A program made the translations under genes and the position numbers. This document shows, piece by piece, positions 32,235 to 64,000 of a DNA stretch of 64,000 bases (its first letter is position 1; the number at the start of each line of letters is the position of its first letter). The notes beneath the pieces were generated by a model that ran no database searches, was not told the DNA's origin, and saw nothing but the letters and a program-made list of their open reading frames with translations. Origin of the DNA: Micromonospora polyrhachis (GTDB lineage Bacteria > Actinomycetota > Actinomycetes > Mycobacteriales > Micromonosporaceae); contig NZ_JACHJW010000001.1 in the NCBI RefSeq assembly GCF_014203835.1, positions 2,926,501-2,990,500 of the forward strand. Direction: 5' to 3'.

Positions 32235-32314
32235 TTCCTGTCCCTACGGTCGGACGTCGGTCACGGTGGTCGAGTTCCTGTCCCTACGGTCGGACGTCGG
32301 TCACGGTGGTCGAG
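32235..32314. repeat. Exact 40-base tandem duplication across a stop codon
   Basis: Bases 32235-32274 are repeated without change at 32275-32314. Read on the minus strand, the first copy met carries the last codons and the TAG stop of the LysM-TM gene (stop at 32284-32286). The second copy repeats those codons and the stop downstream. The gene product is therefore unaffected. Exact identity implies a recent event. Confidence 0.9.
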
Positions 32315-33642
32315 TGGACCGTGACACCGAGCGTGCCCGTCTCCACGCGGCCCTGCTCGTCCACGGTGAACCGCCACTGGTCGTGCGGGCTCTCCCCGAG
32401 GGCCACCACCGCCCAGGGGTTCTGCGGTCGCGAGACCAGGGCGGCCACCTGGGCGGCCTCCTGCTCGGTCGGGGTGTCGGCGAGGATCAGCACGCCCGGC
32501 CCGAACCAGTCGGCCAGGTGCCCCTGACCGTCGATCTCGATAAGCGCCTCGCTGGTGCTGCCGACCGAGACGAGCCGAGCATCCATGTCCGCGTCCACCA
32601 CCACCTCGCCGAGCCCACTGACCACCACTTGGACCTCCTCCGACCAGGGACTGACGACGAGTTGGTTCGCCCAGGCCAGGGCCAGTTCCTGAGCGGTCGT
32701 CTGGTGCCCGCCGACGCTGATCAGCCCGCTGGCCGCCCCAAGCTCGACCAGCTCCTCGTGGCCATCCCAGGTGCCGAGGGTGACCAGGCGCGGACAGGGT
32801 ACGTCGATGTCCCACCTGGTGGGTCGGTCCCGAATCACCCCGAGCGGCGCGTGCCAGGTCCGGCCGGACCTATCGGCCGTCCACGGCGCGACAGCCTGCT
32901 CATCGGGGCTGGACAGCCGAAGGGTGACCAGTTCGTCGTCGAGGCTGATCCCCTGGATGCGGGGAACTCCCTGACCGGCGGCCGCGCACTCGGTCCCCAA
33001 CACCCGCAGTGTCTGGTCGATCATGGCGGCAACCGTGGTACCGAGGAGCCGGGGACCGCCTGGGGCCGCGTTCCTACGGGGCCGTCGCGGCCGACCCTGG
33101 CCACCGTTGCTCCCGGATCTGCGCCACCACCACCAGACGCCGGCAGCCACCACAAGCAGCAAGGCCAGCACGATGGCCAGCGCGATCCACACGATGGAAA
33201 GCTTGCCGTCTCCCTGGGCTGCGGATACGGTTCGCGCCACAGCCGGATCGACCGAGGGCAGGGGCGTGGTCGGCGGCGGAGTCCCCTTTCCTTCCGGCAA
33301 CCGACCGTACTGCACGCCATCGCCTACCGCGTCCCATGGCAGGATCAGGTGCCAACCGACTCGTAGCCGGGTGGGCTCGGTGAGCGCGCCGCCGTCCGGC
33401 TGCACCCGGCCCGCGTTGAGGTGGTAGAGCTCGTCAGCACGCGACTCGTCGCCGAGGATCCGACCGGCAATGCTGGCCAGCGTCTCGCCGCCCCCCGAAC
33501 CGGACACGGTGTAGTACTTGACGGAGCGCGTATCGGATGGTGTCTGCCCGGCCGAGATTCCCGGTAGCGGGATCTGGAGTCCGAGGATGGCCAACATCAG
33601 GGCCATGGCCAACAGGGGCAGTCTTCGCCGCGTCGTAGGCAC
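32284..33642 (-). CDS. LysM-like (KYYxV) domain membrane protein
   Basis: The start is the GTG after GAGGAGG, giving 452 residues; the frame is open further but without a ribosome site. A signal segment (9-32) is followed by a LysM-like module (about 41-116) with VKYYTVSG, IAGRILGD, YHLNAGRVQPDG and GWHLILPWDAVG. One membrane helix follows at about 150-175 (WIALAIVLALLLVVAAGVWWWW), then about 270 cytoplasmic residues of unknown fold (LISVGGHQTTAQELALAWAN; VVVSGLGEVVVDADMDARL). The outer part probably binds cell wall. The module is shared with three other proteins in this window (starts 54282, 56361, 60711). The inner part may report envelope state or bind a partner; the role is not known. Confidence 0.8.
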   Translation of the reverse strand: MPTTRRRLPLLAMALMLAILGLQIPLPGISAGQTPSDTRSVKYYTVSGSGGGETLASIAGRILGDESRADELYHLNAGRVQPDGGALTEPTRLRVGWHLILPWDAVGDGVQYGRLPEGKGTPPPTTPLPSVDPAVARTVSAAQGDGKLSIVWIALAIVLALLLVVAAGVWWWWRRSGSNGGQGRPRRPRRNAAPGGPRLLGTTVAAMIDQTLRVLGTECAAAGQGVPRIQGISLDDELVTLRLSSPDEQAVAPWTADRSGRTWHAPLGVIRDRPTRWDIDVPCPRLVTLGTWDGHEELVELGAASGLISVGGHQTTAQELALAWANQLVVSPWSEEVQVVVSGLGEVVVDADMDARLVSVGSTSEALIEIDGQGHLADWFGPGVLILADTPTEQEAAQVAALVSRPQNPWAVVALGESPHDQWRFTVDEQGRVETGTLGVTVHSTTVTDVRP

Positions 33643-33979: not shown

Positions 33980-35077
33980 ATGAGCCGGCCCAAGAAACCC
34001 GCGCTGCGCGCACGCTGGCGTACGGTGTTGGCCGCCATCATCCTCGTCGTCGTGGCAGGTGCCGGTACGGCGGTCGTCATGGCCACACTGGGCAACAAAG
34101 AGCAGACTCCCCTACCCGGCGTGGCGGTGCCGCCCGGATACCTTCGACCGATCACCGAAGCCGCCGGATCCTGCCCGACCCTGACTCCGGCGAAGCTGGC
34201 CGGACAGCTCATGGCGGAGTCGCGATTCGTCGCCGACGCGACCACCGCCCGGGCGGGACGTGGGCTGGCTGGACTGACCGACGACGAATGGCGTACCTGG
34301 CAGCCCTGGTCGGGCGTTGACCAGGGCGACGCCGAGGCGAGCGTCTTCGCGCTGGCGCACTACCTCTGCCACCTGATCGGACAGGTCCGTGAGGTGAAAC
34401 TTGAGGGAGAGGTATGGCCACTGGCAGTGGCCGCCTACCACTCGGGAATGCCGGCAGTGATCTCGGCCAACGGTGTCCCGGACGGAGCGCGAGACTACGT
34501 GGTCCGGACAGGACGGTACGCGGCCTGGTACGCGCTCAATACGGGCTTCAACGAATCGGCGCTGCTGGCCGCCGGTCCCGAGACGACCGCGACCGCTTCG
34601 CCCCGAAGCACCCCTTCACCCAAGGCGTCATCCTCACCCAGCAACGTCGTGTCTGCCTCGCCTAGCTCGTCACGCCAGGCCACACCACGCGGATCATCGA
34701 CCGGCGGCTCACTGGTCAATGACGAGTACCACAGCTGCCTCACCGCCAATCCACCGCGAGACGGCACGCGCCTGATGCTCGCCAAGTGCGACGGCTCACC
34801 GGCCCAGTCCTGGGAGCCCCGACCGGACGGAACGATCCGGGCCTCGGGTCTGTGCATGGACGCCGCCAACGCCGGACAGGTGGACTTCACCCCGGTGCAG
34901 GTCGCAGTATGCCAGGGCAATCCGGCGCAGCAGTTCCTACTCATCGACAAGCGGATCTACAGCATGCACGCCGACAAGTGCGTCAACATCCACTACAACC
35001 CGGGGGAAGGTACGACGATCGTCCTCTTCTCCTGTCTGAGCCAGTCCAACCAGTTCTTCCGGCTCCAGAAGCGCTGA
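33980..35077 (+). CDS. Anchored lytic-transglycosylase-like protein with ricin-type lectin domain
   Basis: From ATG 33980 (AAGGGGTG upstream) the product is 365 residues. A basic head and membrane helix (about 15-38) are followed by a lysozyme/transglycosylase-like helical domain (about 60-185) with LAGQLMAESRF (the Glu as candidate catalytic acid), LTDDEWRTWQPW and PLAVAAYHSGMPAV. A Ser/Pro/Thr linker covers 200-235. A ricin-B-lectin-like beta-trefoil part follows (240-365) with QSWEPRPDG, QQFLLI and NQFFRL in the QxW positions. It should cut or bind peptidoglycan or another glycan at the wall. The start could also be the GTG three codons earlier. Confidence 0.8.
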   Translation: MSRPKKPALRARWRTVLAAIILVVVAGAGTAVVMATLGNKEQTPLPGVAVPPGYLRPITEAAGSCPTLTPAKLAGQLMAESRFVADATTARAGRGLAGLTDDEWRTWQPWSGVDQGDAEASVFALAHYLCHLIGQVREVKLEGEVWPLAVAAYHSGMPAVISANGVPDGARDYVVRTGRYAAWYALNTGFNESALLAAGPETTATASPRSTPSPKASSSPSNVVSASPSSSRQATPRGSSTGGSLVNDEYHSCLTANPPRDGTRLMLAKCDGSPAQSWEPRPDGTIRASGLCMDAANAGQVDFTPVQVAVCQGNPAQQFLLIDKRIYSMHADKCVNIHYNPGEGTTIVLFSCLSQSNQFFRLQKR

Positions 35078-50054: not shown

Positions 50055-52547
50055 TCACCGGCGTCCCGGCTCGATCAGACTCGACAGCGGCAGGTCGATG
50101 TGCTTGGCCCGTTCCCGCCAGGTGCCCTCGTCGGCGAAGAGCACCCGGTTGACGGTGGTCCGCTCGAAGGAGCGCCGGGGCAGCAGCATCGACACGCCGT
50201 TCGCCAGCAGCTCAGGAAGCCGGGACCGCACCGAGGTGAAGCCGGCCAGCCCGGCTGCGCTCGCGGCCACGTCGATGGCCCGGTTCGTGCCGACGTGCAG
50301 TTGCACCAGACGCTGTCCCGGCACCACGGGTGGCCGGCGCTGATGGAGCGTTAGGTAGTCGCCGTCCAACGCGGCCGGCGACTCCGGAATCACCGCCCAG
50401 GCCCGGGCACCCCGGGCGGTACGCGGCCAACGCACCACCTCGTTCGGCAGGCCGTCCGTGCCGTGCCGCGCCCCGGTGCAGCGCAGCGTCAGCGGTGTGC
50501 CCGGCAGTTCGGCGTACTGCTGCGGATGGCCCGCCTCGTCGACCAGGTAGCCCGCTTGTAGACGCGCCTGGTCGAGCCAGCCGGCCGGCAGTAGAAAAGT
50601 CTCGGACGAGGTGACCAGATGCCGCAGGTCGGCCGGAATATCGACATCGGCCTGGCTGAGGTCCACCGCGCCGCCGGCCTCGACCCGTAGGCAGATCAGG
50701 TGGCGCAGTGGATGGCTGCGGGCCAGCCGCTCACCGTCCAGGATCCCGAGAAGGAACAGGTCAGCAGCCGGTGCACCCTCCGCCGCGACCCGCTGCGGGG
50801 ACCACTCGCTGATAATCCACAGCCGGATTGGTTCGGCGTTCACGCCCGGACGCTCGGGCAGCCAGCGCACACCGTGCGGCCGGGTGTTCCGGGCCGGGCT
50901 GACCAGTGCCGGACGGGGACTCGCCGGGGGCAGCACTGTGGTGTCCGGTGGGGGTAGCGACGTGGTCGGTACGGCTGGTGGTGTCGGTACCGGCAGCAAC
51001 GTGGGGGCGTCTGGACGCCTCGGGATCAGCCAGCCGTCGTCGTTGCGCCAACGAGGTTTCTCATCGCCCGGCGCGATCCTTGCCCATCGTGCCGGGCGAT
51101 GGTGCTCGTCGACCGCGCGCGCCAGGCCGTCCTGGGGCATCACCGTGCTACCGGGGGTCAGTGTCCAGATCTCGACGTTCAGCTCGTCGGCGAGCACGGT
51201 CAGGTGTTCCCGAAGTCCAGCAGCCCGTTCGGGGGCGACCTGGGTCAGCAACATCAGGTCCTCGCCCTGCCAGCCGGCCCGGTCGAGGTGGCCCCGGAAC
51301 TCTGTCGGGCCGACGGCGAGGTAGCTGTCGTCGGTGTAACGCAGGGCCAGCCGCCCGTCCTCCAGGACGGTGAGGTCCAGCAGGAACATTCCCGGCTCGC
51401 TGGAGAGTTGCGCGTACCGGTCACGCAGCGCGTTCTCGCGGGTCCGGTCGACACTGATCAGCCTTACCTCCCCGGCGGTCTCGGTCACCGGGCCGCCCTG
51501 GGGCACCAGCCGCCCGTCCCGGTCGCTGACGAAGCGCGCCGACTCGGTCATGCCCGGCGGGCGGTACTCCCGCCACTGGTCGCCCCGACCATCCCGGTCC
51601 CGGACGCCGAGATCGAGACAACCCTTCAGCAGTACGGCCATGCCGCCCGGCGCGGGGGTCCAGATGCTGGCCCCGGTCGCCAGGGCCAATTCCTGCAACT
51701 GTTCGTCGAGCTTGGGCTGTTCGGCGGGATCATCCGGCCAACGAAGCCACAGCCGCAGATCACCACCGTAGAGGTCGATCGAGGAGAGTGCCGCCGCCAC
51801 ATCACGCCCGCCGCGGACGGTCTGGGATGGCCCGGTCGTGTCAGCGTCGTACACGGAAAGCAGGAAGCCACCGGACCTGCTGGCCAGGGCCGCGGTCACC
51901 AGCTCGGGATGACCCACGCCGAGCCGGGCGGCGGCGGCCCGTCGGACGACGAAGTCCTCCCGGTTGGCGAACTCCAGCCCATCAGGCAGCGGGAGGGTCA
52001 CCACTCCGGTGCGGTTCAGGACCAGCCCGCCGACCAGGTCGAACCACCCGGGCAGCGAGGTACGCAGCGCGCTTGGCTGGATCAGCATCCAGTCCACGAC
52101 GTTGCCGCTGGCTCGGTCGACCGGCATGACCTCCACGGCTTCGTCGCGCGCCGCACCGGCCGGGCCTCGCAAGGTGGCGCCTAACGGTGTCACCAGAATG
52201 TCGCAGCCCAGCTGGTCCGCGACGAGACCAAGCAGTGGCGCGTTGCGGGCACCGTCGTCGACGAGGATGCGCAGATCGCGGCCGATGGCACCGGAGGCCT
52301 GTGCGAGTTCCACCAGTTCATCCACGCCGAGTGCGACACCGGCTTGGGCCGGGCTGGCCAGGCCACCGTCTGCGGCGCGAACAAGCCGAAGGTCACACAG
52401 CCCTTCGACGGGCAGTGGAGCATCCCGCGCGAACTCCTGATGCGCGGACCCCTGATGCGCGGACCCCTGATGCGCGGACCCCTGATCGCCGGCTGGCTCG
52501 TTCGAGGCGACCCCGGACGCACGGCTGGCTCGCAACGTTCCTCGCAT
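50055..52547 (-). CDS. Large soluble protein with a triplicated module, function unknown
   Basis: The 830-residue product has no signal or membrane helix. Three stretches share one pattern of the form DLRxL...L..L...LG..IW.P.PG: about residues 91-127 (DLRILVDDG, CDILVTPLG), 270-315 (DLRLWLRWPDD, ASIWTPAPGG) and 428-470 (DLMLLTQVAPE, VEIWTLTPGS), so a module is triplicated. A Pro-rich linker (530-570) leads to a fourth region (RPHGVRWLPERPGVNAEPI; ADLFLLGILDG). Residues 20-37 are a repeat of QGSAH encoded by three 15-base copies. It lies 106 bases after the LysM-like gene and is probably co-transcribed. I do not recognise a family. The start codon is uncertain because no strong ribosome site is seen. 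Confidence 0.72.
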   Translation of the reverse strand: MRGTLRASRASGVASNEPAGDQGSAHQGSAHQGSAHQEFARDAPLPVEGLCDLRLVRAADGGLASPAQAGVALGVDELVELAQASGAIGRDLRILVDDGARNAPLLGLVADQLGCDILVTPLGATLRGPAGAARDEAVEVMPVDRASGNVVDWMLIQPSALRTSLPGWFDLVGGLVLNRTGVVTLPLPDGLEFANREDFVVRRAAAARLGVGHPELVTAALASRSGGFLLSVYDADTTGPSQTVRGGRDVAAALSSIDLYGGDLRLWLRWPDDPAEQPKLDEQLQELALATGASIWTPAPGGMAVLLKGCLDLGVRDRDGRGDQWREYRPPGMTESARFVSDRDGRLVPQGGPVTETAGEVRLISVDRTRENALRDRYAQLSSEPGMFLLDLTVLEDGRLALRYTDDSYLAVGPTEFRGHLDRAGWQGEDLMLLTQVAPERAAGLREHLTVLADELNVEIWTLTPGSTVMPQDGLARAVDEHHRPARWARIAPGDEKPRWRNDDGWLIPRRPDAPTLLPVPTPPAVPTTSLPPPDTTVLPPASPRPALVSPARNTRPHGVRWLPERPGVNAEPIRLWIISEWSPQRVAAEGAPAADLFLLGILDGERLARSHPLRHLICLRVEAGGAVDLSQADVDIPADLRHLVTSSETFLLPAGWLDQARLQAGYLVDEAGHPQQYAELPGTPLTLRCTGARHGTDGLPNEVVRWPRTARGARAWAVIPESPAALDGDYLTLHQRRPPVVPGQRLVQLHVGTNRAIDVAASAAGLAGFTSVRSRLPELLANGVSMLLPRRSFERTTVNRVLFADEGTWRERAKHIDLPLSSLIEPGRR
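52437..52481. repeat. Three exact 15-base tandem copies in a coding region
   Basis: CTGATGCGCGGACCC is repeated at 52437, 52452 and 52467 without change. On the coding (minus) strand this gives the QGSAH repeat near the N-terminus of the 830-residue protein. Copy-number change would keep the reading frame. Confidence 0.88.
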
Positions 52548-52653: not shown

Positions 52654-54282
52654 TCACTGTTCCACGGATGCCGTTGCTGCCGCCGACGCCGCCGCTGCCG
52701 GCTCGCCTAGCCGGAGCGACCACCGTGCGGCGGGGCCGTCTCCGATGACCACCGGGACGAGATGCTCCTGGGACGGTCGCGCCGACCGGCGCACCCGCCG
52801 CAGTGCGGCCACCTCGGCGGGCGCACACACCAGTACCCGAATGCCGGCCACCGGGCGGTCCGCCGCCAGGTCCGCCACCGCTGCGATTCGGCGTACTCCG
52901 GCGGGGAGCGTCTCCCCCAGCACATCGCCGGCCACCACCACATCCGCTCCGGACCGGCGCAGTTGGGTAAGCAGCGCAGCACCCTGCCGGCGTACGGCGG
53001 CCGGATCGCCGCCGATGGTCAGCGCGTCGGGGGCCAGCGCCAGGTCGACCCACAGCCGGCGCTCCTGGTGCTCACCGAGTACCAGGGGAACACCGGACGG
53101 CGGCGGCTCATCCTGCGGACCGAGCCACCCGTACGCCGATCCCCATCGGAGGGCTCGGGTGCCGATCAGTCGTACGGTTGCCCGTTCGGAGCCGCAGGTC
53201 AGCTCGGCATCGAGGATCGGAAACCAGTTGGGGCTCGACGGTGCTTCATGCCCACCCGCACTGGCGTCCCGGCCCGCCGCGAGCGCGGGCAGCGAGATCG
53301 CGATCGTGGGGGACGCAACCCGCAGAGCGGCGTAGGCGGCTTTCTCAGTAACCGCTTTCTCAGTCGCTGCCGAACCATCTGCCGCCTTCTCAGTCGCCGC
53401 TTTCTCAGTCGCTGCCTTCTCGGTCGCTGCCTTCTCGGTCGCTGCTTTCTCAGTCGCTGCTTTCTCAGTCGCTCCCGAACCCGCTGCTGGTGCGGCCGGG
53501 GCCACCGCTGTTGCGGGCACCGTCATCGCCGATCCTGCCGCAGATGTCGATGTCCCAGGAGGAGCCGGCACCGGTCCCTTGCGCCCGGCGCTGGTGGTGG
53601 CGGTGGCCGTGGCGGCGGTGCTGACGGTGGCCGTGGACAAGGTCTCGGATACCGCCTGCTTGGCCCCGACGATGGTGGGGGTTGCCGTTGCCGCCGGGGC
53701 GGATTCGTGCGCCGATCCAGGTTGCTGGGCCGGCACCGTGGCCAACCGGTGGCTGCGTCGTGAGCGCAGCGTCAGCGGACCGCCGAGCAGCATCAGGACG
53801 GCCAGCGCGAGCACCGCGAGCCAGAGCTCAGCCGACGTCCAGAGCCGCGACAGCGCTGCTGTCGAGCCGCCGTCGTCAGCCAACCCTCCGGACGGACGCA
53901 GACTGCTGGTTGTGGCGTCCGTGGACGGGGACGGTTGCACCGAGGTTGGCGACACGGTTGGTAACGGCCCACTTACCACGCCGGATCCCTTGGCGTCCTT
54001 CGGCAGCGCGAGAAGCCATCCCGGCTCCACAGTGGTTGGGCTGGTCATGCGCTGGCCGTCCGGCTGTAGTCGGCCCTCGTTGAGTTCGAAAATCTCCATG
54101 TAGCGCCTACCGTCGCCCAGGGTGGTGGCGGCGATGGCGAAGAGATACTCCCGCTGGCCGTTGACCGGCGGGCCGACCACGTAGTACTTGCCCGTCCCCT
54201 CCTCGGCGGCTTGCGCCGGCGCGGGCGCAGCCACCAGGAACAGGGCGGCGACGAGGCCGAGCACCGCCATGAGTCGTGTCAT
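52654..54282 (-). CDS. LysM-like (KYYxV) domain membrane protein with EKAAT repeats
   Basis: I use ATG 54282 (AAGGA nine bases upstream; a GTG at 54300 is possible), giving 542 residues. A signal peptide (1-26) is followed by a LysM-like module (about 30-98: GKYYVVG, IAATTLGDG, ELNEGRLQPDG, GWLLALPKDA) and a Ser/Thr/Pro spacer. One membrane helix lies at about 153-172 (AELWLAVLALAVLMLLGGPL), then about 370 cytoplasmic residues. The latter include an EKAAT repeat tract (about 268-312) and a C-terminal alpha/beta-like domain (GAALLTQLRRSGADVVVAGD) that resembles the module tripled in the next gene. It is divergent from the anti-sigma gene and likely part of the same envelope system. Confidence 0.78.
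   Translation of the reverse strand: MTRLMAVLGLVAALFLVAAPAPAQAAEEGTGKYYVVGPPVNGQREYLFAIAATTLGDGRRYMEIFELNEGRLQPDGQRMTSPTTVEPGWLLALPKDAKGSGVVSGPLPTVSPTSVQPSPSTDATTSSLRPSGGLADDGGSTAALSRLWTSAELWLAVLALAVLMLLGGPLTLRSRRSHRLATVPAQQPGSAHESAPAATATPTIVGAKQAVSETLSTATVSTAATATATTSAGRKGPVPAPPGTSTSAAGSAMTVPATAVAPAAPAAGSGATEKAATEKAATEKAATEKAATEKAATEKAADGSAATEKAVTEKAAYAALRVASPTIAISLPALAAGRDASAGGHEAPSSPNWFPILDAELTCGSERATVRLIGTRALRWGSAYGWLGPQDEPPPSGVPLVLGEHQERRLWVDLALAPDALTIGGDPAAVRRQGAALLTQLRRSGADVVVAGDVLGETLPAGVRRIAAVADLAADRPVAGIRVLVCAPAEVAALRRVRRSARPSQEHLVPVVIGDGPAARWSLRLGEPAAAASAAATASVEQ
53340..53475. repeat. 15-base tandem repeats encoding EKAAT
   Basis: Units such as TTTCTCAGTCGCTGC and its CTTCTCGGT variant run head to tail, interrupted once. 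On the minus strand they encode alternating charged and Ala/Thr residues likely to form a helix or flexible stalk inside the LysM-like membrane protein. Confidence 0.85.
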
Positions 54283-54540
54283 CGTGTGATCGTCCTTCAC
54301 CGAGGGAACCGAGGGCTTGCCGACGCCGCACTGAGAAGTTCGATCTGGGTTTCAATCCGGCGGGCGTGAACCAGGGTCCGGACCTCCTCGTTCAAGTGGT
54401 GTTCTCGCGAGCGATGGAGGCGAAATGAGGCAAGTCTTCCCCGTCTCCGCGCCGCGTTGTCGAGACCGCCGACGCTGCCGATTGAGGGACATCGGAATGT
54501 TGACACGTCACACCAGGCGACCGCCCGGGTTACGCCCGGA

Positions 54541-55485
54541 ATGAGTCTTCCCACCTGCGGCGACCCACCCATGCGGACCATGGTCGGCTTCCTCGTGCTC
54601 GACCGACTCTCCGACAGCGAACGTAGCACCGTCGAGTTCCACTTGGACAGTTGCCAGTCCTGCCGGACGGAACGGGATGCCGCAGACCGCGTCGTCGCGG
54701 CACTGAGCCTGTTGACCCCCGAGGACGCTCGAGCGCTCATTGACGAGTTCGCCGTCGACCCGGCTGCCGCACCGTCCACCGCCGTGATGACGGACCACCT
54801 GTTCACCGCTCCAGGAGCGGAACCCGCCGTGCCCACCCAGGCCACCGCCGCGCCGTCGCCAGCGGTGACTCCCGATGGCCGCAGGCCGCGCCGCTCACCG
54901 GCGGTCGACCGGGCGGAGGACCGAAAGCCGCACGGCGCCGACCGCCACCGCTCGCCGCGCGTCGCAGTGGGCTTCCTGCCACCCCGGCCGACTACTGGCC
55001 CACTCTCCCGGGGCCCGCACACCCATCGATCCCGGCGGAGCCGCCGTACGGTACGAGCGGCACTCGCGGCCATCGGCATGGCGATCGTCATTGGCGCTGG
55101 CTTCCTCTTCGTACCGACCGACTCGATCAGGCACCCGGCCCCGAGTCCCGTAGTGGCGGTCGCCTCCACTCAGGACGTGCTATCCGGAATCCAACTGACG
55201 GCAGTCATATATGGCGGCGAGGAAGGAGCCCGCGTCCGACTCACCGTGACTGGGCTTGGCATATACACTCCCTGCCAACTGTTTGCCGTCACCACCGGCG
55301 ATGTGGAACTGGCCCTCGGCGAGCTGACTGGCGGAGACGACATTGCACAGTATGTGGGCATCGTCACCATCCCGGTCGACCGTCTCCGGTCGTTCAGTGT
55401 CAGGCAACTGGACGGCACCGTCGTGGTGGAGGCTGACGTCGTACATGGCTCACCCAGCGCATCCAGAGACCCGGCACCCGAGTGA
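54541..55485 (+). CDS. Zinc-finger anti-sigma factor-like membrane protein (copy 1)
   Basis: From ATG 54541 the product is 314 residues. A ZAS-type zinc motif is at H34-x3-C38-x2-C41 (EFHLDSCQSC). A long charged linker (75-175) and one membrane helix (about 182-203, LAAIGMAIVIGAGFLFV) follow, then an outer domain (205-314) with beta-strand character (VRLTVTGLG, SFSVRQLDGTVVVEADVV). The layout fits an inner sigma-binding part and an outer sensor. The outer domain matches that of the second anti-sigma-like protein at 58154 in order and spacing. It lies just upstream of the ECF sigma gene, the usual partner, although in most systems the sigma gene comes first. ATG 54571 is an alternative start. 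Confidence 0.78.
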   Translation: MSLPTCGDPPMRTMVGFLVLDRLSDSERSTVEFHLDSCQSCRTERDAADRVVAALSLLTPEDARALIDEFAVDPAAAPSTAVMTDHLFTAPGAEPAVPTQATAAPSPAVTPDGRRPRRSPAVDRAEDRKPHGADRHRSPRVAVGFLPPRPTTGPLSRGPHTHRSRRSRRTVRAALAAIGMAIVIGAGFLFVPTDSIRHPAPSPVVAVASTQDVLSGIQLTAVIYGGEEGARVRLTVTGLGIYTPCQLFAVTTGDVELALGELTGGDDIAQYVGIVTIPVDRLRSFSVRQLDGTVVVEADVVHGSPSASRDPAPE

Positions 55486-55574
55486 GCCGCACCGACATGC
55501 GAAGATCAACTTGCACTTCGGAAAAGTCCTGTCGACTGGTGAATTTCGCCGCCAGAACGGCCATCATCGTTTCC

Positions 55575-56132
55575 ATGGATCCGGCCACGGGGTACACGGT
55601 GCCTGAGGAGTTGTCGCCCACTCCCACCGATGAGCAGGCCCTGCGGCTCGCCTACCAACAACACGGTCCGGTCCTACTCAACTACCTGCTGCGACTGACC
55701 AAGGGAAACCGCGGCATGGCAGAGGACATCGTGCAGGAAACACTGGTCCGAGCCTGGAGCCACCCGGAGGCACGCACCAACGACGGCCAGTGGAGCCGAG
55801 CCTGGTTGTTCACCGTGGCCCGACGCATCGCCATCGACCACATCAGAGCGGCGCAGCGGCGGCCCGTCGAGATGCCCGACGAGCGAATCGATGACCATCA
55901 GAGCTTGGACGACGACATCGAGCGGCTGCTCAACGCCCAGGAGGTCCGCGAGGCGGTGGCCAGGCTGCCCGAGCGCCTGCGCAGCGCTCTGATTGAGATC
56001 TACTTCCAGGAGCACTCGGCCGCCGAGGCGGCGGAGAATCTGTCCGTTCCGATCGGCACGGTGAAGTCGCGCACCTTCTACGCGCTACGCGCCCTACACA
56101 AGGCGCTGATCGAACGGGGCTTTACGTTTTGA
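55575..56132 (+). CDS. ECF-type RNA polymerase sigma factor
   Basis: The 185-residue product has sigma region 2 (about 25-95: LNYLLRLTKGNRGMAEDIVQ, ETLVRAWSH, WLFTVARRIAIDHIRAAQRR) and region 4 (about 120-180: LPERLRSALIEIYFQEHSAA, SVPIGTVKSRTFYALRALHK). Region 3 is absent, which defines the ECF group. The frame is open to a GTG at 55482 that overlaps the anti-sigma stop, but that extension looks non-coding, so I use ATG 55575; the start is uncertain. It sits between two anti-sigma-like genes and ahead of a mycosin-like gene. It probably controls this envelope cluster, possibly including its own transcript. Confidence 0.87.
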   Translation: MDPATGYTVPEELSPTPTDEQALRLAYQQHGPVLLNYLLRLTKGNRGMAEDIVQETLVRAWSHPEARTNDGQWSRAWLFTVARRIAIDHIRAAQRRPVEMPDERIDDHQSLDDDIERLLNAQEVREAVARLPERLRSALIEIYFQEHSAAEAAENLSVPIGTVKSRTFYALRALHKALIERGFTF

Positions 56133-56250: not shown

Positions 56251-56364
56251 ATGACTAGGGCATCGACGATGACGGCTGGCAACACTTCACAACGCACTCG
56301 CGAAGGCCTGACGAGGCTTGTGTACGACTACGCGGAGGACCAGAAGTGGTCGGTGATCCGATGA
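56251..56364 (+). CDS. 37-residue peptide coupled to the mycosin-like gene
   Basis: An ATG preceded by GGGAGGAAGCAACCAACC opens a 38-codon frame that ends in TGA overlapping the ATG of the next gene (ATGA). The peptide starts MTRASTMTAGNTSQRTREGL and ends DYAEDQKWSVIR. It is hydrophilic, without a membrane segment. The strong ribosome site and the stop-start overlap are good evidence for translation, either for a functional peptide or as a leader that couples ribosomes to the mycosin-like gene. No family is recognised. The 118 bases before it (56133-56250) hold no gene. Confidence 0.6.
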   Translation: MTRASTMTAGNTSQRTREGLTRLVYDYAEDQKWSVIR

Positions 56365-57965
56365 GTGCCAGAATCCGGCGTACGGTGCGGGTACGACATG
56401 GCATCCTTGCTGCCCTGCTGGTGGCGTTGGGAATAGTCACGGCAGCCCCCACCCCGGCTGTCGCAGCCGACGAGTACCTCAAGTACTACACCGTCAAGGC
56501 TGAGTATCAGGGTGCTCCGGAGAACCTTCGCGCAATCGCGATGCGGCTCCTGGGCAGCGCGAACCGGGGCATGGAGATCTTCAACCTCAACGTCGGACGC
56601 ACCCAGCCCGACGGTGCGGCCCTGTCCGATCCGACGGTGCTACGCCCCGGCTGGCACCTCGTCCTCCCCTGGGACGCCGTCGGCACCGAAGTGCAGTACG
56701 GCCTCCTGCCGAAGACCACGCCGGGGTCGGCCCCCGGCGGCACACCGGCGCCTGGCACGAGCGCCTCCGCGAGTCCTGGCCAACAACCCGGGACGACCGG
56801 TGGAAGCCCAACGCCCTCCGGTGGGTCGACGCCAAGCGGGCGCAACTGCGTCAAGGCGACTGCGGCCAGTGATTCGTCCAACTGGGCAATGGTGCGGCTC
56901 GCTCCCGAGCAGGCATGGACGCGCAGCCGTGGCCGGGGGCAACTGGTCGCGATCATCGACTCCGGGGTCGACGGCACCCTCGAACAACTGCGCGGCCGGG
57001 TCTCGGTCGGTGCGAACATCGTGACCGGCGGCCACGGCAACGCCGACTGTCTGGGATCCGGCACGGCGATGGCAGGGCTCATCGCAGCTCAGTCGGCCGG
57101 CAACGGTGGCCCCGCCGGTGTTGCGCCTGAGGCGGTCGTCATGCCGGTACGTGTGGCGACGGACTCTCCCAAGGTGAGTGCGGCCAACCAGGCCACCGCG
57201 ATCGAGGTGGCGGTCTCCGCGGGTGCGACCGTACTCGCTCTCGGGGCGTACCTCGACCCCGACGACCCCACCGTCGCGCAAGCGATCAAGTTCGCGGTCG
57301 ACCAGGGCGTCGTCGTGGTGGCCGGAGCACCGGTGACCGGCACGACGAATGAGCGGGCGGGCCTCCCCGACGAGGTGATCCGGGTGGCCGGGGTAGGAGT
57401 TGACGGCAGGCCTGCCGACAACTACGTGACCGGAGCGATCGACGTCGTAGCGCCGGGGGTCAACGTGACCAGCGTCGGCATCGCTGGCACCAAGGGGTTC
57501 GTCGGCAGCGGAACCCAGTACGCGGTCGCGCTGGTGGCAGGCGAGGCGGCTCTGGTGCGCTCCGCGTACCCGGATCTCAGCCCCGCCCAAGTCGCGAGCC
57601 GCATCGAGATGACCGCCGATTCCATGGGCGAAGCCCAGCCGGACGGACGGTACGGATACGGAATGATCAATCCGGCGACGTCGGTGACGAGGGAGCTACC
57701 CGCAGAGGCGCAGTCGACCACCTCGGGGGGTCAGTCTTCGACGGACCCCGATGGTTCCACCGATAGCAAGCGTCTGCTGTTCCTGTTTCCGATATTCGCT
57801 GTGCTCGCCCTGGCCGCCCTGCTTGCCTTCCGGTTGCGGCGAGTACTGCACGGAAAACGCGGTGGCGACGACCAGGTACCTGACGAAACTGAAGACACAC
57901 CCGCTCCGGTCTCCGCCGGGCAGCAGCCATCTGATTCGGACGAGGAGGGTAAATCGCGCTCATGA
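56361..57965 (+). CDS. Catalytically degenerate mycosin-like subtilase with LysM-like domain (copy 1)
   Basis: From the ATG that overlaps the small upstream ORF, the product is 534 residues. A signal peptide (1-36) is followed by a LysM-like module (about 39-117, YLKYYTVK, FNLNVGRTQPDG, GWHLVLPWDAVG) and a Pro/Ser linker. An S8 subtilase domain follows (about 165-445), then a C-terminal membrane helix (about 471-491). The S8 part matches mycosins of type VII secretion (WTRSRGRGQLVAIIDSGVDG; two Cys at 163 and 230). Asp200 is kept, but the catalytic His position is Ser233 (DCLGSGTAMAG), the Ser position is Gln386 (GSGTQYAVA), and the oxyanion Asn is missing. It is probably a non-proteolytic structural or sensing protein in the outer membrane-wall zone. 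Confidence 0.85.
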   Translation: MSARIRRTVRVRHGILAALLVALGIVTAAPTPAVAADEYLKYYTVKAEYQGAPENLRAIAMRLLGSANRGMEIFNLNVGRTQPDGAALSDPTVLRPGWHLVLPWDAVGTEVQYGLLPKTTPGSAPGGTPAPGTSASASPGQQPGTTGGSPTPSGGSTPSGRNCVKATAASDSSNWAMVRLAPEQAWTRSRGRGQLVAIIDSGVDGTLEQLRGRVSVGANIVTGGHGNADCLGSGTAMAGLIAAQSAGNGGPAGVAPEAVVMPVRVATDSPKVSAANQATAIEVAVSAGATVLALGAYLDPDDPTVAQAIKFAVDQGVVVVAGAPVTGTTNERAGLPDEVIRVAGVGVDGRPADNYVTGAIDVVAPGVNVTSVGIAGTKGFVGSGTQYAVALVAGEAALVRSAYPDLSPAQVASRIEMTADSMGEAQPDGRYGYGMINPATSVTRELPAEAQSTTSGGQSSTDPDGSTDSKRLLFLFPIFAVLALAALLAFRLRRVLHGKRGGDDQVPDETEDTPAPVSAGQQPSDSDEEGKSRS

Positions 57966-58153: not shown

Positions 58154-59092
58154 GTGGATGACTCCGAGGACAACGAGCAGCATGTCCGGTCCTCACTCGG
58201 CCTGTATCTGGCGGGCGCGGTATCTGGCGACGAACAGACGCGCATCGAGGCACACCTGACCGACTGCGAAGAGTGTCTGGGCGAGGCCGACGAGCTTAGC
58301 CAGGTGGTGGCCGCACTGGCGCTGCTGACCGAAACGGATCGGCGGGAGTTGGTCGCGCAGTTCGGTACGCACAAGTCGCGGGAGGCACCGGCGGGCCCGG
58401 CAGGTCCTCCGTCCAGTAGCCCGCAGCCCGGGGTTGGGTCGTCCCCATCCTCGCCGCAGCCATCGACCGGCTCAGGCCACCACCCGACCAGCTCAGGCCA
58501 CCACCCGACCAGCTCAGGCCACCACCCGACCAGCTCAGGTCCCCGCCCGACCAGCTCAGGCCACCGCCCGACCAGCTCAGGTCCCCGACGGCAACCGGCG
58601 GCGCGAACCGGTCCGCCCCGGGGTCCCAGCTCAACCGGCCGCAGACGATCCCGCTATTTGCTCGTCCTCGCGGGAGTGGCGATACTTCTACTGCTGTCGA
58701 TCGGCATATGGGGTCGGTCCGCCCTCGACAAACCGCCACCCTTGCCCAACGAAGTCACGCTTGTCGCTGACGCCGCCGACCGGTCTACTGGTGCCTCGCT
58801 GTCGGTGGTCGTCGTCGACGACGGGCAGAGCGACCGGGCCGCTGTCCGTGCCACCGTCATGGGTCTGCGGCCGGGACAGCTTTACCGGCTCTACGCGACC
58901 GACCGGGACGGTCGGATATGGGAGTTGGCCGTGCTGACGGGTAGTGACGGACCGCAGGAGGTCGAAGCCAACTGCCCGGTTCCGCTCGACGCACTGGCTC
59001 GATTCAGCGTTAGCGGGCACGACGGTGCGCTCGCCGTGCAGGCCGATGTCGTCGACCCCGCATCGCCGTCACCAGCAGAGGCCCCCCGCTGA
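58154..59092 (+). CDS. Zinc-finger anti-sigma factor-like membrane protein (copy 2)
   Basis: A GTG start with GAGGACTGG upstream gives 312 residues. The ZAS motif is at H34-x3-C38-x2-C41 (EAHLTDCEEC), the same positions as in copy 1. A linker with six SGHHPTS-type repeats (about 106-150) leads to a membrane helix (about 172-193, YLLVLAGVAILLLLSIGIW). The outer domain (200-300) parallels copy 1 (VRATVMGLRPGQLYRLYATD, ARFSVSGHDGALAVQADVV). Two anti-sigma-like proteins around one ECF sigma factor suggest two inputs to one regulator or a duplicated module in which one copy has a new partner. Which one binds the sigma factor cannot be told. Confidence 0.78.
   Translation: MDDSEDNEQHVRSSLGLYLAGAVSGDEQTRIEAHLTDCEECLGEADELSQVVAALALLTETDRRELVAQFGTHKSREAPAGPAGPPSSSPQPGVGSSPSSPQPSTGSGHHPTSSGHHPTSSGHHPTSSGPRPTSSGHRPTSSGPRRQPAARTGPPRGPSSTGRRRSRYLLVLAGVAILLLLSIGIWGRSALDKPPPLPNEVTLVADAADRSTGASLSVVVVDDGQSDRAAVRATVMGLRPGQLYRLYATDRDGRIWELAVLTGSDGPQEVEANCPVPLDALARFSVSGHDGALAVQADVVDPASPSPAEAPR
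58477..58588 (+). repeat. 21-base tandem repeats in the anti-sigma linker
   Basis: Five to six copies of a 21-base unit containing CCACCCGACCAGCTCAGG encode SGHHPTS or SGPRPTS. The unit length keeps frame, so the linker length between zinc finger and membrane helix can vary. Confidence 0.85.
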
Positions 59093-59408: not shown

Positions 59409-60512
59409 TCAGCCGGTGTTTCCTCGGGTGCGCGACGGCGCCCCGATGATGGCGGTGACCGCCGGGTGCCGCGGGGTGTCCGGAACGTGTGCCGGGCGAC
59501 TGGTTGCGAACTCGGCCCGCAGCACTGGAAGTACCTCCGCGCCGAGCAGTTCGAGCTGCTCCAGCACCGTGCCCAACGGCAGGCCGGCATGGTCGATCAG
59601 TAACAGCTGACGCTGGTAGTCGCCGACGTACTCCCGGAAGCCGAGCACCCGGTCGATGATCTGCTGCGGGCTGCCCACCGTCAGCGGCGTGGTGGAGCAG
59701 TATTCCTCAAGGGACGGGCCGCGACCGTACACGGGTGCTCGGTCGAAGTAGGGCCGGAACTCACGGATCGCGTCCTGCGAGTTGCGGCGGACGAAGACCT
59801 GCCCACCCAGGCCGACAATCGCCTGGTCGGCATCGCCGTGGCCGTGAGCCGCGAAGCGCTCCCGATACAGTGCGACCATCCGACGGGTGTGCTCCGGTGG
59901 CCAGAAGATGTGGTTGGCGAAGAACCCATCCCCGTACATCGCCGCCTGCTCTGCGGTTTCCGGACTGGTCACCGCTCCATGCCAGACGAAGGGCGGCACC
60001 CCGTGCAGAGGACGCGGCACGGAGGTGAAGTCGGTCAGCGGAGTGCGATACTCACCGGACCACGTCACCGACTCCTCGCGCCAGAGCCGGCGCAGCAGGG
60101 CATAGTTCTCGGCGGCCAGCGGTTGGCTGTCCTCGGGCCTCTTGCCGAACCGGGGAAAGACCGCGCCAGAGTTTCCGCGCCCCATCATGAGGTCGACCCG
60201 GCCGCCCGCGAGGTGTTGCAGGACGGCGTACTCCTCGGCCACCCGGACCGGGTCATTGGTGGTGATCAGGGTGGTGGCCGTACTCAGCGTCAGCCGGTGG
60301 GTCCGGGCGGCGATGGCCGCCAACAGAACCGCCGGAGCTGACGACACAAATGGCGGATTGTGGTGCTCGCCGGTGGCGAACACGTCGAAGCCGGTCTCCT
60401 CGGCGCGGACCGCGATCGCGGTAATGGCGGCGATCCGCTCGTGTTCGGCGGGCCCGCGTCCAGTGGTCGGATCAGGTGTGATGTCACCGACGCTGTAAAC
60501 CCCAAATTCCAT
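59409..60512 (-). CDS. LLM-class flavin-dependent oxidoreductase
   Basis: The ATG with CGGGAGGGCAC upstream gives 367 residues. The TIM-barrel luciferase-like family is shown by MEFGVYSVGDITPDP at the start, ERIAAITAIAVRAEETGFDV, FATGEHHNPPFVSSAP with the family His pair near 50, LGRVD-type LAGGRVDLMMGRGNSG near 112, and PPFVWHGAVTSPETA. Members use FMN or F420 for monooxygenation or hydride transfer. The substrate is not evident. The gene interrupts the envelope cluster on the opposite strand and probably has nothing to do with it. Reading frame upstream of the ATG to 60938 is not used. Confidence 0.9.
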   Translation of the reverse strand: MEFGVYSVGDITPDPTTGRGPAEHERIAAITAIAVRAEETGFDVFATGEHHNPPFVSSAPAVLLAAIAARTHRLTLSTATTLITTNDPVRVAEEYAVLQHLAGGRVDLMMGRGNSGAVFPRFGKRPEDSQPLAAENYALLRRLWREESVTWSGEYRTPLTDFTSVPRPLHGVPPFVWHGAVTSPETAEQAAMYGDGFFANHIFWPPEHTRRMVALYRERFAAHGHGDADQAIVGLGGQVFVRRNSQDAIREFRPYFDRAPVYGRGPSLEEYCSTTPLTVGSPQQIIDRVLGFREYVGDYQRQLLLIDHAGLPLGTVLEQLELLGAEVLPVLRAEFATSRPAHVPDTPRHPAVTAIIGAPSRTRGNTG

Positions 60513-60710
60513 GTGCCCTCCCGGGACGAACTCCGCCTCAGCGATAGAACGGCCGGCGGGGTGCGCCGGTTCAGCGGATCCGATGTGCTCCTCGGCAGAG
60601 TTCGGAGCGGGCATGGCACCGGAATTGGCGGGACGAAGCGTGAACCAAGCCGTCGTCCGCCCCGTCTCTAGCGAGACGGCCGTTGGCGACCATAAAGGTG
60701 AGAGACGCGT

Positions 60711-62828
60711 ATGTCCTGGATCAGACGAACGACACGACGTGTCGCCCTCGCCGCTGGGGTAGCCGCGGCACTGCTGGGCCTGTCTGTCCCATCGGCATCC
60801 GGGAAAGCCGGCGGAGAGTACGTCAAGTACTACGCCGTGACCTCGAGCGACCGGAATCTCACCGGGATCGCGGATCGTTTGCTCGGCGACGGTTCCCGGT
60901 CCGGAGAACTGTTCAACCTCAACGCCGGCCGTAGACAACCGGACGGCATGGCGCTGACAAACCCGGCACGACTGAACGCCGGCTGGCTGCTGGTGCTGCC
61001 GTGGGACGCCGTCGGTGCCGGCGTCCAGTACGGTCTCCTGCCCGACCAGCCCCCGGTGACCGCGAAGCCCAGCACGACGCCAAAGGCCAGCACGTCACCG
61101 AAGACCGGTACGACCAAGCCCGACCCATCCCAGTCCAGCACCCCGCCAAAGACCGACAACCCGGCCAAGGCGGGAGGGTGCACTACCGCTGCGGCGTCTA
61201 CTTCCGGTTCGAACTGGGCCAGCCTGCGGCTCGCCGCTGAACAGGCGTGGCCGCAGAGCCGGGGAGCGGGCCAGCTCATCGCGGTGATCGATTCCGGCGT
61301 CGACGGTGCCCTACCGCAACTGACCGGCCGCGTCGAGGGGGGAATGGACATCCTCACCGGCAGTGGCCGCGGTGACACCGACTGCCTCGGCTCTGGCACC
61401 GCCATGGCCGGCCTGATCGTCGCACAGCCGACCAAGGGCGGCGCGGTGGCGGGCATCGCTCCCGACTCCATCGTGCTGCCCTTGCGCGTCGTCGACAAGG
61501 ACGCCCAGGCTCGGCCCGCCGATGGCGCTGCGGCCATCGAGGCGGCGGTGGCCGCCGGGGCAACCGTCATCGCGATCGGCCCGCACGTCGATCTCAACCA
61601 GGTGGAGGTGGCCAAGGCCGCCAACGCCGCGGTCGAGAAGGGCGTGGTGGTGGTGGTCGGAGCCGCGCTCAGCTCGGTCCCGGTCAACCCGGCCGCCCGG
61701 CTCGGCGAGGGCGTGCTGCGTGTCGGCGGAATCGGGATAGATGGCCAGGTGGCCGACAACTACCGACGGGGTGGCATTGATGTGGTGGCCCCCGGGGTCA
61801 ACGTCAGCAGCATCGGTATCACCGGTACCGGGCCGATAGCCGGCAGCGGCACGCACTACGCCGTCGCCTTCGTCGCGGGCGAGGTGGCCCTGGTCCGGAC
61901 GGCCTACCCGGGGCTCACCCCGCAACAGGTAGCGCACCGGGTGCGGAAGACCGCCAAAAGCCTGGGCAACGGCGTCGTCCCCGACGACCAGTACGGCTGG
62001 GGCCTCATCGACCCGGCCGCGTCGGTTTCCACGGTGCTGCCCGAGGAAACCCACACCGAACCGGCGGGCGGGGACGCGAGCGCAGCCGGTCCGACCACAC
62101 CGAGCGGCCAGACCACGCTACTGGTGATCGTCACGCTGGTCGCCCTCGCGGCCGTGGTCCTGCTGCTCTTCCGGATCCGGCGGCTGGTGGGGGCCAACAA
62201 GCCCGATGATCCGGCCGGCGGGATCCCACGGCGCACGACCGAGCCAGTCATCGACCGATCCGACGACGTGCCGCCGGCCGGCCCGCCAGCCCCGCCAGGC
62301 CGGCCCATTCCGGCCGTCAAAACCGAACAGGCCGTCAAGACCGACCAAGCCAACCAGACCGACCAAGCCAACCAGACCGACCAGGCCGTCAAGACCAACC
62401 AGGCCAACCAAGCCAACCAGACCGACCAGGCCAACCAAGCCAACCAGACCGACCAGACCGGTCGGCCGACAGTCAGCCTGGCGGCCAGGCCCAGCGGCGG
62501 CTTGTCCCGGCCGTCCACGGACGCCCGTGCCTCCGTGGACGAGCCGACCGGGCGAGCCCGAGCGAAGGACACCGAGGCCATGATGGCCGGCCAGCCCGCC
62601 GGGGCCGATACCGCAACCGGCACCCCCGCCACCGCTGCGGCGGCAACCCCCGCCACCACCACCGCTGCCGCAGGCAAGTCGACCAGCGCAGCCCCCGCCA
62701 CCGCTGCGGCGGCAGCCCCCGCCCCCGCTGCCGCAGACAAGTCGACCAGCGCGGACAAGGCGACGATCGCTGACAAGGCGACCGCTGGCGCCAAGTCGTC
62801 CGCCCCGGCCCGGTCCACCGATGAGTGA
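60711..62828 (+). CDS. Catalytically degenerate mycosin-like subtilase with LysM-like domain (copy 2)
   Basis: The ATG with AAGGTGAGAG upstream gives 705 residues. The order is signal peptide (1-30), LysM-like module (about 36-111; YVKYYAVT, FNLNAGRRQPDG, WLLVLPWDAVG), a Lys/Pro/Thr linker, an S8 domain (about 160-445), a membrane helix (468-488), and a cytoplasmic tail of 215 residues. The tail is rich in repeated NQTDQA and in Ala/Thr. Mycosin-type features are RGAGQLIAVIDSGVDG with Asp194 kept and Cys157/Cys225. The His position is Ser228 (DCLGSGTAMAG), the Ser position is His382 (GSGTHYAVA), and the oxyanion Asn is replaced (VVGAAL). It is a paralog of copy 1 and also expected to lack protease activity. 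It overlaps the golvesin-like gene by eight bases. Confidence 0.85.
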   Translation: MSWIRRTTRRVALAAGVAAALLGLSVPSASGKAGGEYVKYYAVTSSDRNLTGIADRLLGDGSRSGELFNLNAGRRQPDGMALTNPARLNAGWLLVLPWDAVGAGVQYGLLPDQPPVTAKPSTTPKASTSPKTGTTKPDPSQSSTPPKTDNPAKAGGCTTAAASTSGSNWASLRLAAEQAWPQSRGAGQLIAVIDSGVDGALPQLTGRVEGGMDILTGSGRGDTDCLGSGTAMAGLIVAQPTKGGAVAGIAPDSIVLPLRVVDKDAQARPADGAAAIEAAVAAGATVIAIGPHVDLNQVEVAKAANAAVEKGVVVVVGAALSSVPVNPAARLGEGVLRVGGIGIDGQVADNYRRGGIDVVAPGVNVSSIGITGTGPIAGSGTHYAVAFVAGEVALVRTAYPGLTPQQVAHRVRKTAKSLGNGVVPDDQYGWGLIDPAASVSTVLPEETHTEPAGGDASAAGPTTPSGQTTLLVIVTLVALAAVVLLLFRIRRLVGANKPDDPAGGIPRRTTEPVIDRSDDVPPAGPPAPPGRPIPAVKTEQAVKTDQANQTDQANQTDQAVKTNQANQANQTDQANQANQTDQTGRPTVSLAARPSGGLSRPSTDARASVDEPTGRARAKDTEAMMAGQPAGADTATGTPATAAAATPATTTAAAGKSTSAAPATAAAAAPAPAAADKSTSADKATIADKATAGAKSSAPARSTDE
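62325..62460 (+). repeat. Degenerate repeats encoding NQTDQA in the mycosin-like tail
   Basis: Units of 9 and 18 bases based on AACCAGACCGACCAAGCC repeat about eight times. The encoded tract is Gln/Asn/Thr-rich, cytoplasmic and probably disordered. Unit length preserves frame. Confidence 0.85.
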
Positions 62829-63615
62829 CCGGAGCCGGGGCAGCGGCACCTCGGTCGTCATGCCCACGCCCGACGAGGCCAGTGCCCCAGCGGCGATCGC
62901 GCAGCGCAGTGAGTTCGTCCGCGCCTTCGTGGAGCACGCTGGCGACCCACCAGCCAGCGAGCGGCTCACCGTACGGTGGCCCACCCTCATCACCGTCAGC
63001 GCCCTGGTCTGCCTGGGCACCCTCGTGGTCGGCGTGTTCTGGGGCCTGCTCCGGCCCATGCCGGACGCGGAGAAGGAGGCTGCCCGGCGGGCGGCCTCCG
63101 GCCCGAACGGAGCACCGTCGGCCGGTGCGCCCACCACCTGGACCGCCGTGGCCGGGTGGGACTGTGCTGCGGCAACCGACCGCGGCTTCGACGCCCAGGG
63201 TCGGTCGGCGGGCTGGCAGACGATGCCGTCCGGCGGGTGGGCCGGCGACGGATGTCACGGCACCTTCGCGATCCTGCCGATCCCGGACAAGAAAGAGAAC
63301 GGGACGCCACAGTCGGCGAACTGGTGGTTCACCCCACCCTCGGGTATGAACAGCTGCCGGGTCTCCATCCACGTACCGGGAGCCGGCTACCCCTCCGCGA
63401 AGACGGTGCGCTACTCGATGCGGGCCGGCGGCAACGGCACACCGTACGCGGTCTTCACCGTCAACCAGGCCGAAAACCTCGGCAAGTGGGTCGACGTCGG
63501 CTCGTACCCGGTCCACCAGAACCAGATTGCGATATCCCTCGATCCAACGGACGCCAGCGGAGCGCGTGCCAGTCGCGTCGTCCTCGGCCAGATAAGAGTG
63601 CACTGTGGTCACTGA
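62821..63615 (+). CDS. Membrane-anchored protein with golvesin/Xly-type C-terminal domain
   Basis: The ATG lies inside the last codons of the mycosin-like gene (eight-base overlap). The 264-residue product has a cytoplasmic head (1-50), one membrane helix (about 53-73, TVSALVCLGTLVVGVFWGLL), and an outer domain with four cysteines (GWDCAAA, DGCHG, SCRVS, VHCGH). Residues about 175-262 resemble golvesin/Xly beta-sandwich domains (CRVSIHVPGAGYPSAKTVRY, FTVNQAENLGKWVDVGSYPV). Such domains bind polysaccharide or assemble on surfaces. Tight coupling to the mycosin-like gene suggests a complex at the outer membrane face; that is inference. Confidence 0.75.
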   Translation: MSDRSRGSGTSVVMPTPDEASAPAAIAQRSEFVRAFVEHAGDPPASERLTVRWPTLITVSALVCLGTLVVGVFWGLLRPMPDAEKEAARRAASGPNGAPSAGAPTTWTAVAGWDCAAATDRGFDAQGRSAGWQTMPSGGWAGDGCHGTFAILPIPDKKENGTPQSANWWFTPPSGMNSCRVSIHVPGAGYPSAKTVRYSMRAGGNGTPYAVFTVNQAENLGKWVDVGSYPVHQNQIAISLDPTDASGARASRVVLGQIRVHCGH

Positions 63616-64000
63616 CAGTAGCGTGGCGCCGTCAGGCGGCGGCCGGACCGCGCCCTCGACGAGTGCCCGGGTCGAACGGGTCTCGACGCGGGCGTGGAGC
63701 CGGCACAAGACCATCGGGTCGGCGGTCCGCGCGGCCCGGGAGGGCAGCGTCATCTCCGTCGCCGCGGGCGTATACCGGGAACGGCTGGTGCTCGACCGCG
63801 CGGTCACCATCGTGGCCGAGGAAGACACCGGCAGTGTCGAACTCGTCTGCGCGGAAGGCCCCGCCCTGGCCGTACGCTTCGGCGGGGTCACGGTCCGAGG
63901 CCTGATCATTCGCGGGCCCCGACGCGGGCCTGCGGTCAGCGTCACCGCGGGCAGTCTCGCCCTGGAGTCTGCGCTGATCACGGCTGGCAGCGTCGAGGTC
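63605..64000 (+). CDS. N-terminal part of a beta-helix (pectin-lyase-like) protein, cut by window edge
   Basis: A GTG start 11 bases before the end of the preceding gene opens a frame that continues past the right edge (132 codons seen). After a Ser/Gly-rich head, residues 28-132 show right-handed beta-helix turns: HKTIGSAVRAAREGSVISVA, GVYRERLVLDRAVTIVAEED, VRFGGVTVRGLIIRGPRRGP. In other actinomycetes similar N-termini are joined to CbbX/SpoVK-like AAA ATPases near type VII secretion genes; I recall this from family knowledge and cannot verify it here. No signal peptide is visible, so the helix is probably cytoplasmic. Confidence 0.8.
   Translation, partial: MVTDSSVAPSGGGRTAPSTSARVERVSTRAWSRHKTIGSAVRAAREGSVISVAAGVYRERLVLDRAVTIVAEEDTGSVELVCAEGPALAVRFGGVTVRGLIIRGPRRGPAVSVTAGSLALESALITAGSVEV

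Follow-up and report, generated by a model that had tools for sequence, protein, structure and literature searches.

Our analysis revealed a clade of mycosin-like S8 subtilases in Micromonosporaceae that carry a LysM-like head and have lost their catalytic residues, and this dead clade is almost certainly maintained by selection. Its first copy in the 64,000-nt stretch of Micromonospora polyrhachis DNA analyzed here (the window), named pMyc1, can hardly be able to cleave as a subtilase; we give about even chances to the reading that it is an adaptor, non-catalytic and anchored to the wall, in which the known structural role of mycosins is reused. Type VII secretion needs mycosins but not their proteolysis, and the structural share of the mycosin's job is still being worked out; a lineage that kept the fold but lost the mycosin chemistry offers a case in which nature has separated the proteolytic from the structural function. 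It also links type VII secretion, through one operon, to an ECF sigma factor, and it points to a relative of this system that lacks EccB.

The pMyc1 gene, characterized by ORF, translation, Pfam/NCBIfam searches and an AlphaFold model, occupies exactly positions 56361–57965 (+) and encodes 534 amino acids in a frame open throughout, with an in-frame GTG at 56346 as an alternative start. The domain order is signal/TM, LysM-like head, linker, S8 domain and C-terminal TM. Pfam returned a single S8 domain (PF00082; 77.5 bits against a cut-off of 21.8; residues 191–434), and the score with the mycosin model TIGR03921 was 209.6 bits, under its cut-off of 278.75, which leaves pMyc1 outside the mycosin equivalog. 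Within the S8 domain (residues about 172–446; 56874–57698, +), the catalytic Asp is retained as D200 in IDSGVDG, the catalytic His is replaced by S233 in CLGSGTAMAG, the nucleophile Ser by Q386 in GSGTQYAVA, and Val325 occupies the position of the oxyanion Asn; pMyc1 thus has neither the Asp-His-Ser triad of an active S8 peptidase nor its oxyanion Asn. In the profile alignment with MycP3 (PDB 4kg7), these blocks face IDTGV, DCDGHGTSVAG and GTSYAAAYVSG. The AlphaFold model, built from 34 sequences, had pLDDT >90 in most blocks of residues 40–110 and 180–450, and residues 158–450 superposed on subtilisins and on MycP1 and MycP3 with Z of 35–37; the Pfam score and this superposition identify an S8 subtilase fold, and the superposition shows that the catalytic residues were lost in place. 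A shifted alignment concealing another His or Ser was ruled out by the profile and structural alignments. C163 and C230 form the mycosin Cys pair, from the N-terminal extension to the Cys of the HGT block; C163 was conserved in at least 90% and C230 was invariant, both aligned to 4kg7, and the disulfide bond between them is predicted only. An initial reading made from the sequence alone had proposed the retained Asp200, the changes to Ser233 and Gln386, the missing oxyanion Asn and the mycosin-like cysteines; its residue numbers and motifs all hold, and the alignment and superposition that it had suggested as a check yielded no alternative His and Ser in the triad.

The LysM-like head was placed at residues about 38–106 (56472–56678, +) by the model and the head profile. 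Its sequence, YVKYYTV...L..IA.R.LGD..R..EI..LN.GR.QPDG..L.DP..L..GW.LVLPWDA, is LysM-like, its model has a beta-alpha-alpha-beta order with pLDDT >90 in most blocks, and the head family profile matched the PDB LysM protein 9g8s (E = 6e-4). The Pfam LysM model did not match the head even at E of 5, and the assignment to Pfam LysM was therefore dropped; the head is LysM-like by the profile-to-PDB match and the model only. The profile match and the modeled topology make peptidoglycan binding by the head a likely, predicted property. As in mycosins, a C-terminal transmembrane helix follows (57765–57854, +; model helix at residues 469–498, hydropathy peak at 472–490), and together with the hydrophobic N-terminus it predicts that pMyc1 is exported and tethered to the membrane.

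A tree of 114 S8 domains, from which the His, Asn and Ser columns were omitted, united all LysM-headed S8 domains in a single 38-member clade (SH-aLRT 99), whose neighbors are live mycosins with the usual architecture. The clade grouped with the live mycosins own_L003, L092, L109 and L111 (SH-aLRT 99 for the group), which locates it within the mycosins. The nucleophile Ser and the oxyanion Asn were each found in 0/38 members of the clade, whereas each was present in 63/63 of the ordinary, live relatives; because a relative counted as live when it had Asp, His and Ser, the Asn count alone does not follow from the definition. Asp200 was retained in 37 of the 38 members. In the main branch of 31 sequences, the His position held Ser (17) or Thr (14) and nothing else, and position 386 held Q (13), E (9), H (4), R (2), P (1), A (1) or V (1). 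Of the two replacements, that of His is conserved as Ser/Thr in 31/31 main-branch members, and position 386 is varied. The sister branch of seven kept His in six members and carried Asp in place of Ser in six, a pattern most simply explained by loss of Ser and Asn first and of His later. Three other positions conserved in live mycosins were altered in the dead clade (N293 to A, S295 to G and P390 to A), suggesting that the substrate groove was remodeled as well. Comparison of close pairs (NG86) gave dN/dS of 0.24–0.42 for dead and 0.13–0.32 for live domains; the dead S8 domains are under purifying selection, somewhat relaxed. Nearly all relatives have open frames, the exception being L050 with one in-frame stop. 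No LysM-headed ortholog with an intact triad was found in the ortholog comparison that the sequence-only reading had called for, and a sporadic mutant was ruled out because the clade lacks the triad throughout. The view of a protein otherwise intact, and selected rather than decayed, was borne out by a loss that is old and fixed, by the intact fold and by the dN/dS values.

A search of the host genome (7.15 Mb, one contig) with pMyc1 gave 22 matches, including a second copy and two proteins that share the head only. The second copy, pMyc2 (60711–62828, +), is 51% identical to pMyc1 and has a Pfam S8 domain; it keeps the Asp, carries Ser for His and His for Ser (GTHYAVA), and scored 207.3 bits with TIGR03921, again under the cut-off of 278.75. 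Matches at E 1e-60 or better occurred in 10 of 61 genomes (60 related genomes and the host's own), all in the same family, and the carriers named among the matches listed from a scan of 84,980 species genomes were all Micromonosporaceae (Catenuloplanes, Micromonospora, Pseudosporangium, Actinoplanes, Phytohabitans and Virgisporangium). A full match was present in 2 of 396 sampled Actinomycetota genomes, both Micromonosporaceae, and plasmids searched at E 1e-20 gave no match. The host genome contains further dead mycosins, namely L010, in which the Asp is lost, and own_L011, L012, L014 and L017; at three host EccB loci the sole mycosin is one without Asp (L010) or without Ser (L011 and L012). 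These other dead proteins resemble the LysM clade in being mycosin-like S8 domains with catalytic loss, but they have no LysM head, and their losses are separate ones outside the LysM clade. Catalysis was thus lost several times, and the tree requires at least four to five changes. At L100, L102, L103 and L105, a second, LysM-less dead S8 gene (His to Arg, Ser to Ala) lies directly downstream of the LysM-S8 gene.

The pMyc1 gene is flanked on one side by genes for a zf-HC2-like membrane anti-sigma factor with one TM (54571–55485, +) and an ECF sigma factor (55539–56132, +; best NCBIfam model PRK09645, 188.3 bits against a cut-off of 202), and on the other by a second membrane anti-sigma gene (58154–59092, +; zf-HC2/RskA_C-like, one TM). 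Two recurrent neighbors lie on the minus strand, a protein of the LysM_B family with a LysM-like head and TM (52654–54282) and an uncharacterized large protein (50055–52547) without a Pfam match, the latter found in 12/29 LysM-S8 regions and 0/31 controls. These numbers come from a comparison of 29 LysM-S8 regions, often larger (15–60 kb), with 31 control regions around ordinary mycosins (about 20 kb). A sigma factor was present in 23/29 LysM-S8 regions and 1/31 controls, which differ in size; among the named loci spanning no more than about 22 kb, the size-matched count was 8/11 versus 1/31. Similarly, a lectin-bearing protein weakly matching SLT was found in 22/29 versus 0/31 regions and a zf-HC2 anti-sigma factor in 14/29 versus 0/31, whereas EccC was about equally frequent (11/29 versus 12/31) and EccB was found in 7/29 versus 19/31. 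The context of LysM-S8 genes is therefore defined more by the sigma module than by the secretion system, and the LysM-S8 family probably belongs to a sigma regulon. Linkage to type VII secretion as the defining context was weakened, EccC being as common near live mycosins. The maps were of three types: some regions have no EccC, some, including this one, have EccC/EccD but lack EccB, and in the others the gene lies beside EccB/EccC together with a live mycosin or a second dead one. About half of the mapped regions are without EccC, and the pseudo-mycosin is therefore not simply a core part of the secretion system. The earlier proposal of a structural or sensing part of an envelope machine was partly borne out: the pMyc1 gene sits in an envelope module that includes other LysM proteins, an ECF sigma factor with membrane anti-sigma factors and, at this locus, a type VII secretion operon, whereas the structural or sensing role is a prediction. 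Two further genes of the same families as module genes lie 20 kb upstream, one for a second LysM-TM protein (32284–33606, −) and one for a ricin-lectin/SLT-like protein (33980–35077, +).

A perfect ECF-type promoter, TGAACC-N15-CCGT, was found at 60641–60665 (+), 70 nt upstream of the pMyc2 start codon as counted from its first base. A divergent perfect copy (60549–60573, −) starts 61 nt before an ATG of a minus-strand gene for an LLM-class flavin-dependent oxidoreductase (59409–60614; probable start 60512), and a near-consensus copy with one mismatch (54367–54391, +) lies upstream of the anti-sigma/sigma pair. No exact copy was found upstream of pMyc1. Within the 64 kb window alone, the motif count was not above chance, and copies with one mismatch are common by chance (9 against 5.2 expected); in the whole host genome, there were 21 exact sites versus 4 for the reversed pattern. 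TGAAC and CCGT 16 bases apart preceded 18/30 lectin-protein genes, 9/41 LysM-S8 genes and 5/9 LuxR genes, versus 14/439 other genes of these regions and 0/408 control genes, and other spacings gave counts of 0–3. A weight matrix that left out the tested region placed 15/41 LysM-S8 genes above the 99% control level. This evidence is positional and comparative, and the related loci are not fully independent. The fixed spacing upstream of the family members is that of an ECF regulon, and from the context we infer that the neighboring sigma factor would read TGAACC-N15-CCGT. We take the TGAACC-N-CGT promoter to resemble the SigL consensus. Exact sites also precede the LuxR gene adjacent to EccD and the gene of the live mycosin L003, in the latter case 73 nt upstream of the start (L222, C1:854878–854902), and this shared promoter suggests that live and dead mycosins may be co-regulated.

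The operon of copy 2 continues in the order pMyc2, TM protein, EccA, EccC and EccD. The gene next to pMyc2 (62821–63615, +) encodes a protein with one TM that weakly matches Golvesin_C; its model, from two sequences only, reached pLDDT of 50. It is followed by the start of a gene for a beta-helix and EccA-type AAA protein (63605–64000, +; continuing to 66379 beyond the window) and, beyond the window, by EccC (66389–70411), far above the cut-off of both EccC models, and EccD (70443–71822), just below its model cut-off. No EccB was found at the locus, the nearest of the nine EccB genes in the genome being about 350 kb away, and the 103 kb read here contained no live mycosin; pMyc1 is thus encoded with EccC and EccD but not with EccB. 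The EccC of this locus belongs to a distinct group with 51–63% identity, the next EccC proteins being about 43–44% identical, and this group occurs in 8/61 genomes, all 8 among the 10 with LysM-S8 genes. None of the 11 mapped loci of the group had an EccB match; in 4 the Golvesin-like gene had a LysM-S8 gene as its immediate neighbor, and 7 had no S8 gene in the stretch read, which indicates that the secretion core does not need a pseudo-mycosin at the same locus. Farther along lie a tandem-repeat protein with a WXG-like end (72254–77482 in full coordinates) and an ORF of 3925 aa whose start is WXG-like (81071–92848), both probable type VII substrates. Tentatively, these genes may represent an undescribed Micromonosporaceae subtype of type VII secretion that an ECF sigma factor would induce. 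It would combine EccC/EccD with a Golvesin-like protein of one TM and an EccA that carries a beta-helix, would have neither EccB nor proteolysis by a mycosin, and would use the TM protein and pseudo-mycosins anchored to the wall in place of the outer EccB-MycP chamber.

EccB is the known docking partner of MycP. In MycP1 and MycP5, the protease activity is dispensable while the protein is required for a stable membrane complex (PMC5082899), and the MycP5 trimer caps the EccB5 chamber with the active sites facing inward (PMC8131196). From this published role, the anatomy of pMyc1 and its context, we propose that pMyc1 would be exported, with its LysM-like head holding peptidoglycan, its C-terminal helix holding the membrane and its intact subtilisin fold serving as a non-cutting docking module. 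It would belong to the regulon of the ECF sigma factor encoded beside it, and in the host genome one promoter would drive pMyc2 and the EccB-less type VII operon. Its job would then be the known second function of mycosins, to stabilize or position an envelope secretion or assembly complex without proteolysis, with an added wall anchor. Against such an adaptor, there is no EccB at this locus or at the 11 related loci, 7 of which also have no S8 gene nearby; EccC is missing from about half of the mapped LysM-S8 regions and is no more common near dead than near live mycosins; and an exact promoter copy precedes only 9 of 41 LysM-S8 genes, pMyc1 not among them. If it serves as a scaffold, pMyc1 must have a partner other than EccB.

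The main rival, possible although doubtful, is a sensor, in which the dead S8 groove would bind a wall peptide, substrate or ligand and signal to the membrane anti-sigma factors, freeing the ECF sigma factor. No neighbors recur more consistently than the sigma and anti-sigma genes, and the conserved polar replacements (D200, S/T233 and Q/E/H386) resemble a kept pocket, of the same kind as the pseudotriad D105/T170/G485 of CspC, which controls a cell-wall hydrolase pathway (PMC6636752). However, groove residues conserved in live mycosins changed as well, at 293, 295 and 390, and the prodomain and jelly-roll insert of CspC are absent from the pMyc1 model. An unlikely explanation is that the dead copy joins the live mycosin cap, or competes with it, and thereby damps its proteolysis. 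In Catenuloplanes (G006 C16) and in G034, the LysM-S8 gene does have EccC/EccB and a live mycosin as neighbors, and the host's live L003, from the group nearest the dead clade, has the same promoter; but many loci, like this one, have no live mycosin nearby, and in several the neighboring second S8 is also dead. New chemistry at the changed site, such as D200 with Glu, Asp or Gln at 386, is very improbable: acidic and amide residues do dominate this position, including the Asp of the sister branch, but it varies among seven residues, unlike a catalytic position, and His, Ser and oxyanion Asn were all lost together in the main branch. Decaying pseudogenes, to which the lost catalytic residues and the stop in L050 might point, are already contradicted by the open frames, dN/dS well below 1, the intact fold and the conserved operon and promoter, and this reading is scarcely tenable.

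Mycosins, LysM domains, S8 pseudoproteases and ECF modules are each known separately. In the open-licence literature, we found no description of mycosin pseudoproteases or LysM mycosins, nor of their combination as a conserved clade or of an EccB-less locus under such a promoter. The family-restricted subtilisin pseudoproteases CspC and CspA of Clostridioides difficile are comparable, CspC keeping the Asp with Thr for His and Gly for Ser, and CspC shows that a subtilisin pseudoprotease can act as a sensor (PMC6636752). pMyc1 differs from them in its mycosin lineage, LysM head, TM anchor and actinobacterial context, and in having neither the prodomain nor the jelly-roll insert of about 130 aa, its S8 domain of about 275 aa aligning continuously to subtilisins. 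The sigma module resembles ECF modules of the SigL/RslA type in its sigma factor, nearest to PRK09645, and its zf-HC2 membrane anti-sigma factor, but here it occurs with LysM pseudo-mycosins and a type VII secretion operon. With the ESX mycosins MycP1, MycP3 and MycP5 (TIGR03921), pMyc1 shares the S8 fold, the Cys pair, the C-terminal TM helix and the genomic link to EccC/EccD, whereas it differs in its lost triad and oxyanion hole, its score under the TIGR03921 cut-off, its EccB-less locus and its added LysM-like head.
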